From Paraglaciecola psychrophila 170 (GTDB taxonomy: Bacteria; Pseudomonadota; Gammaproteobacteria; Enterobacterales; Alteromonadaceae): a stretch of DNA of 64,000 nt. Of this stretch, positions 14,310-22,259 are shown in pieces (the stretch's first letter is position 1; every line of letters starts with the position of its first letter). The notes beneath the pieces were generated by a model. That model was given only the letters and a program-made list of their open reading frames with translations, was not told where the DNA came from and ran no database searches. The position numbers and the translations under genes are program-made. The stretch covers positions 1,240,001-1,304,000 of the forward strand of contig NC_020514.1 in the NCBI RefSeq assembly GCF_000347635.1, in the 5' to 3' direction.

Positions 14310-15869
14310 CTACTTTTGTGCGAACGTCAGTCCTAAGGAGCTTAACACATTAGTTCGTTGCTCAATTTTATTGGCTTCCTCTTCAACCACTTCGGCTTGC
14401 GCAAGATTTTGTCTTGAGGCGTCATTAATATTAGAAATGTTGCGACTGATTTCCTGTGAAACCATGCTTTGTTCTTCCGATGCAGCTGAAATTTGTATAG
14501 CTAGGTCTGCTATCGAAGACACGCCATTATATACTTTCAGAACAATATCTCTGGACTGGGTGGTTTCAGACACACATAAATCAGCTGATTCTTTACCTTT
14601 TAACATGATTTTAGACCAGCTCAAAAACGTGGATTGAATTTCACCTACTGAACTTTGTATTTGTTTGGTTGCTGAATGAGTTCTATTTGACAGGGCCCTC
14701 ACTTTGTCAGCTACAACAGAAAACCCTCTTCCTTGCTCAACCGCAAGTGCGGCTTCAATCGCGGCATTAAGGGCAAGTAAATTTGTTTAGTCAGCAATAC
14801 CTTGAATCTTTTGCATAACCACACTAATTTGCTCTGCTTCTTTAGCTAGTTCACTGGCAGCAGTCGCTGATGCAGATACATCATCAGCTAACTTGGAGAC
14901 TTGTTGCATTGTTTGAGACATAGAATCAGTTGCTGATTTGCAGTCTATATGCAACGACTCAACTTTTGCCGACGTTTTCGTAGTGTTGTTAGCCACCTCA
15001 GAAATAGTTGCTGTCATCTCTTCTATTGCCGCAGAGCCTTGAAATAATTCATTGGCTTCTTGCTCGACACCTTTTTTAGCAAGTTCAGACGATTTTTTTA
15101 ATAAGACAGCACCCATAGAAAGTACGTTAGTGCTATCCATAACTCTCCCAAGTATTGTTTTAACTCGACCTTCACTTAGTTTTTGGGGGAAATCGACAAT
15201 ACTCGCTAATCCTTCACCATAAAATACATGCCGAGAAATACTGTCGTATTTTTTTGCTGGTCAGCCAAATAATGTTGCATTTGGATTAATTCAGTATTAA
15301 AAACTGCATAGGGTAGCGCCATAAACAATAACGAAAACTATGGCGAATAAAAACACAAAATTATAGTAACAAGCGACGTAATCAAGAAAACTGAATTCTT
15401 TACTATAGGCTTAGTAAATACTCCATCACCTTTGAATTTGCCACTATTTATATGTGTGTATATTCGTTCAGCATTTTTACGATAATCGGCTGCACAACAC
15501 TGTGCGTAAAGATTGATAACCAGTCAATGTGCCTTTTTCATAAACATGGGTTACAAATGCATCTACCCAATAATACTTTCCATCGTTACAACGGTTTTTA
15601 ACTGCACCTTGCCAAGCTTGTTTATTCTTCAACTTTCCCCACATATCAGCAAAGGCCGCTTTGGGCATATCAGGATGTCTTACGACATTATGATTTTTAC
15701 CTAAGAGTTCTTGCTGGAAATATCCTGCTACTCGACAAAATGCTTCATTAGCATAGGTAATTACACCCGCTGTATCTGTCACAGATACGAGCTCTTCGTC
15801 AGATCTTAATGGTACTTCTTCATTTATTATGCCCTGGTTACCTTTAGATATTATTGTTAGCTCTTTATG
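14310..15869 (-). pseudogene. Aer-like PAS-domain methyl-accepting chemotaxis protein, decayed
   Basis: Read on the minus strand, the N-terminus has the Aer-type start (NEEVPLRSDEELVSVTDTAG) and a PAS domain with CRVAGYFQQELLGKNHNVVR and KYYWVDAFV. The membrane region near 15141-15476 is scrambled across frames. The signalling domain resumes at 15140. In the hairpin tip, normally [18 protein letters not shown], the Gln is a TAA stop at 14787-14789. The rest runs to a normal end at 14310. No ATG precedes the PAS domain. Multiple lesions make this a true pseudogene of an energy-taxis/redox receptor. Confidence 0.85.
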
Positions 15870-16277
15870 TTCTTTATATTAATGTTTTATCATTTTGTTA
15901 AACGCTGTTATTGCATTAAGAATTTGTAGCCCGACTGTTTTCTATACTTAGTTATGACAGGCACTTGCATATCATCCGACTAAGTATATTTAGATTGTTA
16001 ATCTCAAAGGAATTTGGTTGAATTATAGGCAAAATTTAGTGCATAAAACTTTATTAATTATCGAGCCTTAAGAGAACCTTGGTAATTAACAAATACTGGA
16101 TTTCGCGATATAAGATGTAAAAAGGTAATGATATTTTGGGCTTTTTTCTTTTAAAAACGCGGGTGAATGAGGTGTGTATTAGATATAACCTAGACATCAC
16201 ACAAATATAAAAACCGGCTTTCGCCGGTTTCAATTTCATCTGATTTTTATTAGAAATTTTAGCTCGAAAGCTTAAAC
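15870..16277. other. intergenic, about 400 bp
   Basis: AT-rich sequence between the first typA copy and the dead chemoreceptor. It contains the typA terminator at 16211-16230. I saw no coding sequence with a credible start. Confidence 0.5.
16211..16230 (-). terminator. intrinsic terminator of typA copy 1
   Basis: Same 8-bp stem and TTTC loop as at 14255, with the poly-A on the plus strand giving a U-tract for minus-strand transcription. It lies 47 bases after the stop codon of the first typA copy. Confidence 0.85.
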
Positions 16278-18116
16278 TCAGCTCTTAGTTGGTCGCCCAG
16301 CTTGCTTTCGCAAGTTTTCAGTCAACAACTTCTTACGAATTCGTGTGCTTAAAGGTGTCACTTCAACCAATTCATCATTGTCGATGAACTCAAGCGCTTG
16401 TTCTAGCGACATGATAATCGGTGGTACTAAACTTTGCGCTTCGTCGGTTCCTGATGCACGAACGTTAGTTAGCTGCTTACCTTTAAGGGCGTTCACCGTC
16501 AGGTCATTTTCACGAGCATGAATACCAATTACCATGCCTTCGTAAACTTCAACACCGTGACCGATAAATAACCGTCCGCGACTTTGTAAGTTAAACAATG
16601 CGTTAGTTAGTGCTTTACCGGTTGCGTTGGCAATTAATACGCCACTCTTACGCTTACCGATTACGCCGCCTTTATGGGGGCCGTAATGATCAAAGGTGTG
16701 GTAAATCAAACCAGAACCTGACGTCATGGTCATAAAGTCAGTTTGGAAACCAATCAAACCACGGCTAGGGATCATGAAGTCCATACGAACACGACCTTTA
16801 CCATCGGGTGTCATATTGGTTAACTCACCTTTGCGTAAACCAATTTGTTCCATAATGGAACCTTGATGTTTTTCTTCCACATCTATAGTCACTGTTTCGA
16901 AAGGTTCGTGGGTCACACCATCCACTTGTTTCAAAATTACTTCCGGACGAGAAACCGCTAATTCGTAGCCTTCACGACGCATGTTTTCAATCAATATACC
17001 CAAGTGAAGTTCACCACGACCTGATACGCGGAACTTGTCCGGATCTTGGGTTTCTTCCACTTTAAGCGCCACGTTGTGGATCAATTCAGTTTGCAAACGT
17101 TCATGGATATTACGTGATGTGACGTATTTACCTTCTTTACCACAGAACGGTGAATTATTGACTTGAAAAGTCATGGTCACTGTTGGTTCATCAACTGAAA
17201 GAGGCGGCAATGCCACAACTGCACTTGGATCGCACACGGTATCGGAGATTTTAAGCTCACCTAAACCTGTTATAGCAACAATGTCACCCGCGTCACCAGA
17301 ATCTACTTCGAGGCGCTGAAGCCCTAAATAGCCTTGAACCTGCCCGATTCTTCCGTTGCGGGTCTTGCCATCAACACCAATAACACTGACTTGTTGGTTA
17401 GGCCTAACCGAACCACGTGTAATACGCCCTATACCAATTACACCCACATAGGAGTTGTAATCCAATTGCGACATTTGCATTTGTAATGGGCCGTTGATAT
17501 CGGCAACAGGTGGTTTAACATGTTTGATGATAGTTTCAAACAAAGGCGTCATGTTATCGCTAGGCACATCTAAATCGTTGGTAGCCCACCCATTTATGGC
17601 TGATGCGTATACCACTTGAAAATCTAATTGGTCGTCAGTTGCACCTAAGTTGTCGAACAAATCAAATACCTGATCTATTACCCAACTCGGACGAGCACCA
17701 GGCTTATCAATTTTGTTAATAACAACAATCGGCTTGAGACCTTGTGCAAAAGCTTTTTGTGTTACAAAACGCGTTTGTGGCATAGGGCCTTCTTGTGCAT
17801 CTACCAATAACAATACTGAATCGGCCATAGACATCACACGCTCCACTTCACCACCGAAATCGGCGTGTCCAGGAGTGTCTACTATATTTATGCGGTATTC
17901 ATTCCATTTAATAGCGGTGTTTTTCGCAAGAATGGTAATGCCACGCTCCTTTTCAATATCGTTTGAGTCCATCACACGTTCTTCGGCTACGCCGCGGCTC
18001 TCTAAAGTGCCAGACTGTTGTAGTAACTTATCAACTAGGGTGGTTTTACCGTGGTCAACGTGGGCTATAATAGCTATATTCCTCAAATATTCGATTGAGG
18101 TGTTTGATGAACTCAT
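16278..18116 (-). CDS. typA: ribosome-associated GTPase TypA/BipA, copy 1 (diverged)
   Basis: 612 residues, a full-length TypA. GTPase motifs are intact: AHVDHGKTT (G1), DTPGHADFG (G3), NKIDKPGA (G4). The EF-G-like domains and the BipA-specific C-terminus ([19 protein letters not shown]) follow. It binds the 70S ribosome and supports 50S assembly and growth in cold or stress. Compared with the neighbouring copy it lacks single residues in two places ([11 protein letters not shown] versus [22 protein letters not shown] versus [11 protein letters not shown]). It also carries local changes such as [18 protein letters not shown]. It appears functional but is the faster-changing copy. Confidence 0.95.
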
Positions 18117-18565
18117 TTTTTCTTTCTCTGTTAAGGGCCACGTATTCGTCTTGAATGACTATCTACTTGTAAAAGTAATACGTAGCTAGATTGTTTAAAT
18201 TTTGCGCGCGGATTATACAGTTTAAAAGAGAAAAGGGGATAAGTCTTTTGAACATTCATCGATATAAAATTTTTACCGTCCACTTATAGTAATTTCACTG
18301 CAAGTTATCATATGTCCATGTTGGTTCGCATGTTAGTTCATATAAGTTGTTCATCAATAGTTAGGACACTTTATAGAACTTACAGTTTCCTGCTAGGTCA
18401 TTATTGTTAATAGTGATTCATACATCAAATAATTAACATAAGAATTAAATGCTAAGAGCTTAATGAGATTCTTATAATTTTAACGTAGCCAATAAAAAAC
18501 CGGCTTTCGCCGGTTTCAATTTAATCTTTTAAAAGCTCGAAGCTCGAAGCTCGTAATTCGAGAGT
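18117..18565. other. spacer between the two typA copies
   Basis: It holds the upstream region of copy 1 (about 18117-18240) and the terminator of copy 2 (18497-18516). The upstream part resembles that of copy 2: a 'GGGCCA' leader, 'AAAGTAATAC' and 'GCGCGGATT.TACAG' occur in the same order in both (18130-18225 and 20420-20535). Near 18537-18553 there is a short GCTCGAA triple repeat. No gene. Confidence 0.6.
18497..18516 (-). terminator. intrinsic terminator of typA copy 2
   Basis: Identical hairpin to those at 14255 and 16211, followed on the minus strand by a U-rich tract. It lies 50 bases beyond the stop of copy 2. Confidence 0.85.
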
Positions 18566-20410
18566 TTACCCTTTAGCAGGTCGTCCAGCTTGCTTACGCA
18601 AGTTCTCAGTCAACAACTTCTTACGAATACGCGTGCTGATAGGTGTCACTTCGACCAATTCATCATTGTCAATGAACTCAAGTGCTTGCTCTAACGACAT
18701 AACAATCGGTGGCACTAAGCTTTGCGCTTCGTCGGTACCTGATGAACGTACGTTAGTTAACTGCTTACCTTTGAGGGCGTTAACAGTCAGGTCATTTTCA
18801 CGAGCGTGAATACCAATCACCATTCCTTCGTATACTTCAAGACCGTGACCGATAAATAAACGTCCGCGGCTTTGCAAGTTAAACAATGCGTTAGTCAATG
18901 CTTTGCCTGTTGCGTTGGCAATCAATACACCACTTTTACGCTGACCGATTATGCCGCCTTTATGGGGTCCGTAATGATCGAACGTGTGGTACATCAAACC
19001 AGAGCCTGATGTCATGGTCATAAAGTCAGTTTGGAAACCAATCAAACCACGACTAGGGATCATGAAATCCATACGGATACGACCTTTACCATCTGGAGCC
19101 ATGTTGGTTAGCTCACCTTTACGTGTTCCTAGCTGTTCCATGATAGAACCTTGATGTTGCTCTTCAACATCAATAGTAACCGATTCGTAAGGTTCGTGAG
19201 TCACGCCATCAACTTGTTTCAAAATAACTTCTGGACGCGAAACAGCTAACTCGTAACCTTCACGGCGCATGTTTTCAATCAATATACCTAAGTGAAGTTC
19301 ACCACGACCAGATACGCGGAATTTATCCGGATCAGTTGGTATTTCTTCCACTTTAAGTGCCACGTTGTGGATTAACTCGTGTTGCAAACGCTCAAGAATA
19401 TTACGTGAAGTCACGAATTTACCTTCTTGGCCAGCAAAAGGAGAGTTATTGACTTGGAATGTCATGGTGACTGTAGGTTCATCCACAGAAAGAGGCGGTA
19501 AGGCGACAACTGCACTTGGATCACAAACAGTATCTGAGATTTTAAGTTCGCCCACACCTGTTATGGCAACAATATCACCTGCATCACCAGATTCCACTTC
19601 GAGGCGCTGTAGCCCTAAATAGCCTTGCACCTGACCAATTTTACCGTTACGAGTTTTACCATCTGCGCCAATAACAGTGACTGCTTGGTTAGTCTTAACC
19701 GAACCACTAGTAATACGCCCTATACCTATTACACCCACATAAGAGTTGTGATCCAATTGCGATATTTGCATTTGTAATGGGCCATTGATATCGGCAACGG
19801 GTGGCTTTACATGTTTGATGATAGTTTCAAACAAAGGCGTCATGTTATCGCTAGGCACATCTAAATCGTTGGTAGCCCAACCATTTATGGCTGATGCGTA
19901 AACCACTTGAAAATCTAGCTGATCGTCAGTCGCGCCTAAGTTATCGAATAAATCAAATACTTGATCTATTACCCAATCAGGACGTGCGCCTGGCTTATCA
20001 ATTTTGTTGATAACAACGATTGGCTTCAAACCTTGAGCAAACGCTTTTTGTGTAACAAAACGGGTTTGTGGCATCGGGCCTTCTTGCGCATCTACTAACA
20101 ACAATACTGAATCGGCCATGGACATAACACGCTCTACTTCACCACCGAAATCGGCGTGACCAGGAGTGTCAACTATGTTGATGCGGTATTCGTTCCACTT
20201 GATAGCAGTGTTTTTCGCAAGAATGGTAATACCACGCTCTTTTTCGATGTCGTTTGAGTCCATCACACGTTCTTCGGCTTCGCCGCGGCTAGCTTCTAAT
20301 GTGCCAGACTGTTGTAATAACTTATCAACTAGGGTGGTTTTGCCGTGGTCAACGTGGGCTATAATGGCTATGTTCCTCAAATTTTGAATTGAGGTGTTTG
20401 ATGAACTCAT
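18566..20410 (-). CDS. typA: ribosome-associated GTPase TypA/BipA, copy 2 (probable ancestral copy)
   Basis: 614 residues from ATG 20410; an in-frame start 36 bases further upstream would add a tail absent from copy 1. All G motifs and the C-terminal BipA domain are present, and the sequence keeps the standard family spacing in the two places where copy 1 has lost residues. It is nearly identical to copy 1 over most of its length. Position next to divergent glnA matches the usual typA-glnA arrangement of gammaproteobacteria, so this is probably the original gene and the other the duplicate. Confidence 0.96.
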
Positions 20411-20669
20411 TGTTTTGTCTCTATTTAGGGCCAGATATTGTATCAAAGATGATTATTAATTTTTTAAAGTCACATTTTCTAAAGTAATACACGGCTAAAT
20501 TTACTGAAATTTTATGGGCGCGGATTGTACAGTTTTATCCTCCATTTAGCGAACTTCAAATGCATATCGCTGTTAATAAAGAAAAGACCCCTAGTTTATT
20601 AACCTCGCATTAACATCTTAATGGTAATTTGGAGTTTTTAAACCAGTGTGACCCAATGTAGTGCTTTGG

Positions 20670-20686
20670 CGCACTTTTTTGGTGCG
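20670..20686 (+). promoter_or_regulatory. putative NtrC (GlnG) binding site upstream of glnA
   Basis: CGCACTTTTTTGGTGCG matches the NtrC consensus pattern TGCAC(C)-N5-(G)GTGCA at the GCAC and GTGC cores. It lies about 75 bases upstream of the candidate -24 element, a normal enhancer distance. Confidence 0.7.
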
Positions 20687-20759
20687 AACGGTGCTATCCT
20701 TTTCGTTTACGCTATGCTAAAAAAACATAAACAAAAGACATTCCAATCACTTAGGTATG

Positions 20760-20775
20760 TGGCATGATTATCGCT
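20760..20775 (+). promoter_or_regulatory. putative sigma-54 promoter of glnA
   Basis: TGGCATGATTATCGCT fits TGGCAC-N5-TTGCA, with GG and GC exactly ten bases apart (the -24 and -12 elements). Two positions differ from consensus. Transcription would begin near 20787, leaving a leader of about 60 bases before glnA. Confidence 0.7.
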
Positions 20776-20849
20776 TCATGCAGGCACACTTTGTATTTGG
20801 GTTATTTGACTCCCAATAATACATTTATACTTTTAATCTGGAGGACACC

Positions 20850-22259
20850 ATGTCAGCACAAAAGGCCTTAGACCTTATTAAAGAAACCGAAGCTAAATTT
20901 GTTGATTTACGCTTTACTGATACAAAAGGCAAGGAACAACATGTTTCTATCCCTACTCATCAAGTGACTGAAGACTTCTTCGAAGAAGGCAAAATGTTTG
21001 ACGGTTCTTCTATCCTAGGTTGGAAGGGTATTAACGAATCAGACATGATCTTGATGCCTGATGGCGAAACGGCTGTACTTGACCCATTTGCTGAAGAAAC
21101 TCAAATTAATATTCGTTGTGATATTTTAGAACCAATGACCATGCAGGGCTATGACCGTGATCCTCGTTCTATTGCTCGTCGCGCAGAAGAATATTTGAAG
21201 TCAACAGGTATTGGCGACAAAGTGTTAGTCGGACCTGAGCCAGAATTTTTCTTGTTTGACGATGTTCGTTTCCATACCGATATGGCTGGTTCTTTCTTCA
21301 AAATTGATTCTAGTGAAGCCAAGTGGAATTCAGGCTCTGAGTTTGAAGAAGGTAATATGGCCCACCGTCCTGGTGTTAAAGGTGGTTATTTCCCAGTTCC
21401 TCCAGTCGATTCGGCTCACGATACACGCGCAGCTATGTGTATGGTTATGGAAGAAATGGGCTTAACTGTTGAAGCGCATCACCATGAAGTAGCGACCGCC
21501 GGTCAAAACGAAATTGCATGCCTTTTCAATACATTGGTTAAAAAAGCTGATGAAGTTCAAATCTATAAGTATGTTGTACATAATGTTGCTCATGCTTACG
21601 GACAAACAGCTACCTTTATGCCAAAGCCTATTGTGGGTGATAATGGTTCTGGTATGCATGTTCACATATCAATTTCTAAGGAAGGCAAAAATGTCTTTGC
21701 TGGAGACAAATATGCTGGCATGTCTGAAGAAGCTTTATTCTATATTGGCGGTATCATTAAACATGCTCGCGCAATTAACGCTTTCACTAACGCATCGACG
21801 AACTCCTACAAACGTTTAGTACCTGGTTTCGAAGCACCTGTTATGTTGGCATATTCTGCACGTAACCGTTCTGCTTCTATTCGTATTCCTTTTGTGACTA
21901 GCGAGAGAGCTCGTCGAATCGAAGTACGTTTCCCAGACCCAACAGGTAACCCTTATCTAGCTTTCACTGCATTGTTGATGGCCGGTCTTGACGGGATCAA
22001 AAACAAGATTCATCCTGGTGATTCAATGGACAAAGATTTGTATGACTTGCCCCCTGAAGAAGCTGCGGCAATCCCACAAGTATGTAGTTCACTTGAGCAA
22101 GCGTTGGAAGCCCTTAATAACGACCGTGAGTTCTTAACTGTCGGTGGTGTTATGACTGACGACTCGATTGATGCTTACATAGCACTTAAGAGTGAAGAAG
22201 TGCAATTACTAAACATGTCAACTCATCCAGTTGAGTTTGATATGTATTACAGCGTTTAA
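20850..22259 (+). CDS. glnA: glutamine synthetase, type I
   Basis: 469 residues, the GS-I beta length. Metal and substrate motifs are intact: [39 protein letters not shown] and the ATP-site box [10 protein letters not shown]. The adenylylation target is Tyr398 in [10 protein letters not shown], so GlnE control is expected. It makes glutamine from glutamate, ammonium and ATP as a dodecamer. It has a strong ribosome site (CTGGAGGACACC before ATG). Upstream sigma-54/NtrC elements and downstream glnL-glnG complete a nitrogen-response locus. Confidence 0.98.

Follow-up and report, generated by a model that had tools for sequence, protein, structure and literature searches.

In Paraglaciecola psychrophila 170 two complete copies of typA, the gene for the GTPase TypA/BipA, lie in tandem, and we consider it probable, at roughly 0.6, that they supply two working TypA isoforms from differently regulated promoters, a division of labour being preferred over a plain increase in dosage. 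The strain (170T, published as Glaciecola) is an Arctic sea-ice isolate (PMC3642286), and the stretch analysed here, referred to as the window, comprises 64,000 nucleotides (1240001-1304000 of a single-contig genome, 5,413,691 bases in length), with all positions below counted from its first base. The duplication is old, real and shared by some relatives, and the two genes differ in the sequence upstream of their putative -10 elements, as well as in a small set of residues that are specific to each paralog in every carrier seen.

Two complete typA genes in tandem

Copy 1, the downstream gene (16278-18116, minus strand, 612 amino acids), and copy 2, proximal to glnA (18566-20410, minus strand, 614 amino acids), were delimited from the open reading frame (ORF) list, alignments and profile matches. 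An original prediction, made from the sequence alone, had described two full-length genes arranged head to tail with clustered substitutions and all GTPase motifs kept in both, the second copy standing beside glnA, and had proposed aligning the two coding sequences; each of these points holds. Across the alignment the proteins share 574 of 612 residues (93.8%, far above chance) and the genes 1615 of 1836 bases (88.0%), with a nonsynonymous divergence (dN) of 0.033 and a synonymous divergence (dS) of 0.61 (NG86), and the substitutions fall in clusters. The start of copy 2 is the ATG at 20410, as in the family, the TTG at 20446 in the ORF list being a mechanical extension, and the ORF list places glnA as its divergent neighbour (20850-22259, plus strand), a gene that adjoins typA in 21 of 21 genus genomes read (22 in the set, with G016 not read).

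Both products score well above the 757.3-bit cut-off of TIGR01394 (TypA_BipA), at 953.4 bits for copy 1 and 943.3 bits for copy 2; against NF007583 (PRK10218), a narrower model for ribosome-dependent GTPase TypA, they reach 1052.4 and 1041.2 bits and stay below the curated cut-off of 1260. Pfam families PF00009, PF03144, PF00679 and PF21018 are above their cut-offs in both copies, in the domain order expected of TypA (GTPase, EF-Tu-like domain 2, EF-G C-terminus-like, BipA C-terminal), and copy 2 can be aligned over nearly its full length to the solved BipA chain 4zcm_A, which we take to be the E. coli protein. What we take to be the GTPase motifs do not differ between the copies in pairwise alignment, the catalytic histidine of BipA presumably being the one in the motif DTPGH. 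That histidine is His78 in E. coli, according to PMC8313970.

Both copies are intact, under strong purifying selection and equally constrained, with summed dN/dS values, over 15 ortholog pairs each, of 0.0365 (copy 1) and 0.0411 (copy 2), next to 0.026 and 0.043 in two groups of single-copy typA genes. Inactivating changes in copy 1 of other genomes were looked for, and all seven copy-1-type genes are open and free of internal stops. In five of five genomes (G018 is without rpoB) copy 1 falls slightly below copy 2 in codon adaptation relative to rpoB, and both typA copies exceed ntrB in this measure. As far as sequence can tell, both copies appear to work.

Upstream segments, paralog-specific residues and conversion-like tracts

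The duplicated unit extends from about the -10 element through leader and gene to the terminator. The terminator hairpin AAACCGGCGAAAGCCGGTTT is identical in both copies (33-nt repeat, 97%); that of copy 1 (16210-16231, minus strand) was found by repeat comparison and terminator scan, and that of copy 2 (18496-18517, minus strand) by repeat comparison, being absent from the consensus-scan list. The 5' leader of copy 1 (18117-18211, minus strand) is homologous to that of copy 2 (20411-20523, minus strand). Upstream of these stand a putative -10 element of copy 1 (TATAAT, 18212-18217, minus strand), kept in six of six copy-1 genes, and a putative -10 element of copy 2 (20524-20529, minus strand), which reads TACAAT as in the single-copy relatives and other genes compared, with the G+C-rich CCGCGC after both. 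The leader of copy 1 in G018 is about 58 bases longer by insertion (151 versus 93-95 bases from -10 to start codon). No Rfam element reached its gathering score in 16000-20900.

Duplication of the whole unit, promoter and terminator included, had been predicted, and this stands from about the -10 downward, leader and terminator included, but not for the 44 nt before it. In a comparison of six copy-1 genes with 12 others that are copy-2 or single-copy (among them G003 and G008), this segment is 64-95% identical within copy 1, 66-98% within the other 12 and 30-52% between the two classes. The copy-1-specific segment (18218-18261, minus strand) belongs to a class conserved in all six carriers of the tandem, and the corresponding copy-2 segment (20530-20573, minus strand) to the class of the compared single-copy relatives. 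In G019 an intervening gene on the opposite strand makes read-through from copy 2 into copy 1 unlikely, and the copy-1 segment is present there as well. Each of the two genes appears to be served by a putative promoter of its own.

The copies also differ in protein sequence. Copy 1 had been predicted to have lost single residues at two sites, with copy 2 keeping the family spacing, and an alignment of 43 TypA proteins (six copy-2, G008, seven copy-1-type, four close single-copy relatives and 25 further) reverses this polarity. Extra residues at copy-2 positions 39 and 359 are present in six of six copy-2 proteins and G008 only, and are absent from all seven copy-1-type, all four close single-copy and all 25 further proteins, as well as from 4zcm_A; the ancestral spacing is therefore that of copy 1, a single residue having been gained by copy 2 at each of the two sites. 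The first gained residue stands shortly before what we take to be the second GTPase motif, and the other in what we take to be domain III. Other fixed or near-fixed differences between the copies arose on both branches. Eight positions have no state common to copy-1-type and copy-2 proteins, four of them within residues 326-359, a region that we likewise assign, presumably correctly, to domain III. For the seven fixed sites listed from the 43-protein alignment, the probability that four would fall within a stretch of this kind is 0.015 when all sites are considered and 0.032 when only variable sites are. The reading of copy 1 as a degenerating copy is ruled out by its spacing, its constraint and its freedom from inactivating changes.

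Runs of agreement at variable sites were further compared with 1000 shuffles, for same-genome and between-genome pairs. Same-genome runs are longer than those of the shuffles at p<0.05 in four of six carriers, G018 (codons 85-140, p<0.001, with a longest run of 167 identical nt), G002 (codons 287-304, p 0.006), G014 (codons 243-254, p 0.008) and G000 (codons 179-200, p 0.011), with a borderline tract in G012 (codons 445-468, p 0.052) and no significant run length in the G019 pair (p 0.132). These conversion-like tracts suggest that gene conversion has homogenised short stretches scattered over the gene. In a tree of codons 221-390 copy 1 stands apart from copy 2 plus G008 (88/91 and 83/91), and sister placement of same-genome copies is rejected there in five of six carriers; the flanking thirds mix the paralogs, a clade of copy 2 plus G008 being rejected for codons 1-220 (p 0.042) and a copy-1 clade for codons 391-613 (p 0.043). 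A model that would limit conversion to the GTPase domain and leave the middle third untouched was considered and rejected because the G002 and G014 tracts sit in that third.

Occurrence and phylogeny of the pair

A second adjacent typA, which the original prediction had proposed to seek in related genomes, is present in five other genomes of the genus, bringing the tandem to six of 22 (G000, G002, G012, G014, G018 and G019), with the same order and orientation throughout. The accompanying statement that typA is normally single-copy agrees with nearly all other genomes sampled. In a family scan (295 genomes, 16 from this genus, E<=1e-100) typA was found in 290, with two matches only in G000 and G002 and no second match at that threshold in the 279 genomes outside the genus; in a class scan (369 genomes, E<=1e-180) it was found in 326, with a second match in G000 and G594, both scans having scored only the best three or four candidates per genome. 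The G594 match covers model positions 3-543 of 594, falls below the family cut-off and lies on another contig; the only candidate that the class scan gave for an additional full-length typA outside the genus was therefore rejected as partial, non-tandem and sub-cut-off. Among the best 80 of 584 matched named loci, drawn from a set that leaves out genomes very near the window's, two typA genes occur only in L052, a record of an uncultured Paraglaciecola metagenome-assembled genome (MAG) that is also G018; the other 79 have one each by motif search within 10 kb or less on either side. Of 191 bacterial genomes surveyed, 165 had one typA and 26 none, according to PMC1780047, so that a maintained pair is unusual.

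The pair is interrupted in some carriers. Three genes on the same strand separate the copies in G002 (L134 8697-11001, typA on plus), methyltransferase-like, aminotransferase-like and sulfotransferase-like by eye from their translations, and a GGDEF-type gene, also named by eye, is the one on the opposite strand in G019 (L133 8804-10690, typA on plus). Contig L136 of G003, 5617 bases in all, contains a glnA split over two overlapping ORFs, together with a copy-2-type upstream segment, typA and a pnp-like gene; its typA is mostly of copy-1 type, with a last third that groups with copy 2, and the contig may be a collapsed tandem or a chimera. It is doubtful that G003 is a clean case of a genome with a single typA of copy-1 type, given an 84%-complete MAG, a 5.6-kb contig and a locus of mixed type. 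In the window itself, downstream of copy 1, ORF fragments at 14310-15782 (minus strand) match a single gene of 513 aa that is intact in the equivalent place of G012 (oriented L132, 11092-12633), a PAS-type chemoreceptor as judged by eye; in the window this gene seems either disrupted or affected by 454 read errors.

All copy-1-type genes group in one clade (98/94), and a wider clade (100/99) unites copy 1 with copy 2 and G008, leaving outside it the single-copy genes of G004, G020, G001 and G021. Placement of these four with copy 1 or with copy 2 is rejected (p 8e-5 and 6e-4), so that, gene conversion aside, the duplication is younger than their split. A copy-2 clade without G008 is rejected as well (p 0.007), as is the placement of G014 copy 2 with G001 and G021 (p 6e-4); some of the tested clades were named after seeing a tree, which weakens the p-values in general. 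In a tree of five markers (rpoB, gyrB, ntrB, ntrC and glnA) G014, which carries the pair, groups with G001 and G021, which have a single typA (100/100); rpoB and gyrB alone give this grouping at 69/95 and reject a placement of G014 among the remaining carriers (p 1e-6; G018 is without both markers). Four of the five single-gene marker trees agree on this grouping, gyrB keeping G014 apart at a support of 0.07, and base composition in the marker set is odd in G008, G014 and G015. The leaders of G014 are split in a similar manner: that of copy 1 is 76-90% identical to copy 1 of four other carriers (53% to G018, with its longer leader), and that of copy 2 is nearest to G008 (85%), then G021 (70%) and G001 (68%). 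The simplest account of this conflict between gene and species trees would be lateral spread within the genus, with G014 as a recipient of the locus and G008 as a recipient of the copy-2 coding region.

Retention of the pair and comparison with known systems

We propose that the typA transcription unit, from about the -10 through the terminator, was duplicated in tandem once, in a Paraglaciecola lineage, and that the downstream copy acquired a new upstream segment that was conserved afterwards, both copies, held under strong purifying selection, probably yielding complete TypA GTPases. Short tracts would be swapped by gene conversion at different sites in different species, with about residues 326-359 (domain III, as we take it) remaining paralog-specific and with two residues gained by copy 2. 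The pair may later have been transferred among species of the genus by recombination, and differently regulated promoters might let the cell set the amount, and perhaps the type, of TypA by condition. The suggestion that a retained second copy may be specialised is thus plausible, and is strengthened by the copy-1 upstream segment and the paralog-specific residues.

Several observations weigh against this proposal. A sigma-70 consensus scan returned nine sites, no more than the 10.6 expected by chance, and was rejected as a source of promoters; neither typA -10 was among its sites, so that the promoter reading draws on conservation alone. The clustering of fixed sites is weak and its window was picked after looking; five of 30 between-genome pairs also give agreement runs at p<0.05; in codons 221-390 sister placement of G014's own copies is not rejected (p 0.081), and two of the tracts, those in G002 and in G014, fall in that same third. 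A single typA is present in each of five close relatives (G004, G020, G001, G021 and G008), and the best tree's clade of copy 2 plus G008 has little bootstrap support (51/96). Between G014 copy 1 and its counterparts in the five remaining carriers dS is 0.81-0.92, a range close to that of rpoB (0.81-1.03, four carriers), and a position of G014 copy 1 outside the remaining copy-1 genes is not rejected (p 0.061), so that any transfer would be old. Finally, equal constraint and an only slightly lower codon adaptation of copy 1 also fit dosage or redundancy.

Dosage is indeed the strongest competitor, at clearly less than even odds: the copies would be interchangeable and raise TypA supply, for instance for ribosome assembly in cold water, their sequence differences being drift. 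Equal strong constraint, identical catalytic motifs and conversion-like tracts between the copies agree with this, as do growth of strain 170T at 4-15 °C (PMC3642286) and the harm done by bipA deletion in E. coli to growth and ribosome assembly at suboptimal temperature (PMC8313970). It needs neither a separate conserved upstream segment, as seen in six of six carriers, nor shared paralog-specific residues, and we favour division of labour because of these two features; moreover, P. arctica A3R16 (L053) has one typA by motif search of its locus.

Strictly vertical descent would place the duplication early, at the root of this section of the genus, and would require many losses but no lateral transfer. 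The rpoB-like dS of G014 copy 1, the tolerated grouping of the other copy-1 genes without it and the deviating gyrB tree speak for such a history, which we nevertheless regard as improbable in view of the rejected placements of the single-copy genes and of G014 copy 2, the rpoB and gyrB test and the two-fold origin of the G014 leaders; gene conversion could mislead the typA trees among these arguments. Less probable still is that copy 1 is an import from an unsampled relative that landed beside the resident typA: its ancestral spacing, the tree conflict at the locus and the leaders of two origins in G014 could be so explained, but copy 1, copy 2 and G008 are mutually nearest kin, and leader and terminator are homologous between the copies. 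Although the genome was finished from 454 reads (PMC3642286), an assembly artefact is excluded by the 12% divergence of the two genes in DNA and by the presence of the tandem in five further genomes (one-contig G014 and G018/L052 included), and a decaying second copy is just as implausible in the face of seven open copy-1-type genes.

In a cold-water bacterium, an additional TypA with a separate upstream region is consistent with either a division of labour or a dosage effect. BipA is described as a 50S assembly factor (PMC8313970), and its deletion impairs ribosome assembly in Salmonella at 20 °C (PMC12013901). Hypothetically, one TypA copy may be specialised for the cold. A stronger version, in which the isoforms keep the 326-359 stretch paralog-specific while conversion acts on the rest of the gene, are driven by different promoters and travel as a unit among Paraglaciecola species, one of them performing a task, such as 50S assembly near freezing, that is beyond the other, seems to us rather unlikely. 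In a literature that lacks most subscription papers we found by title no publication on typA duplication or a TypA pair. The action of TypA/BipA on the ribosome needs more study, as PMC8313970 puts it. A natural pair with different upstream sequences gives a built-in comparison, in which a cold-responsive promoter and the mutual replaceability of the isoforms could be sought.

Compared with the single-copy TypA/BipA (TIGR01394) of gammaproteobacteria, both copies have the same full domain set and GTPase motifs, with scores far above cut-off, and copy 2 likewise stands beside glnA, as typA does in the genus; what differs is the presence of two tandem paralogs with different upstream segments, and the two extra residues of copy 2, found among the 43 aligned proteins only in copy 2 and G008. 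Duplicated EF-G genes are likewise retained and diverged paralogs of a translational GTPase; their copies differ considerably, with a functional difference that is unclear (PMC1780047), and at least eight such duplications occurred in bacteria (PMC4342817). Unlike them, the TypA pair is seen, among the genomes sampled, only in part of one genus. Duplicated EF-Tu genes, which we take to be those named tufA and tufB, likewise combine a duplicated translational GTPase with gene conversion. Their copies are nearly identical and conversion is assumed, according to PMC1780047, whereas the TypA copies lie in tandem, are 88% identical in DNA and appear to undergo conversion limited to short tracts.

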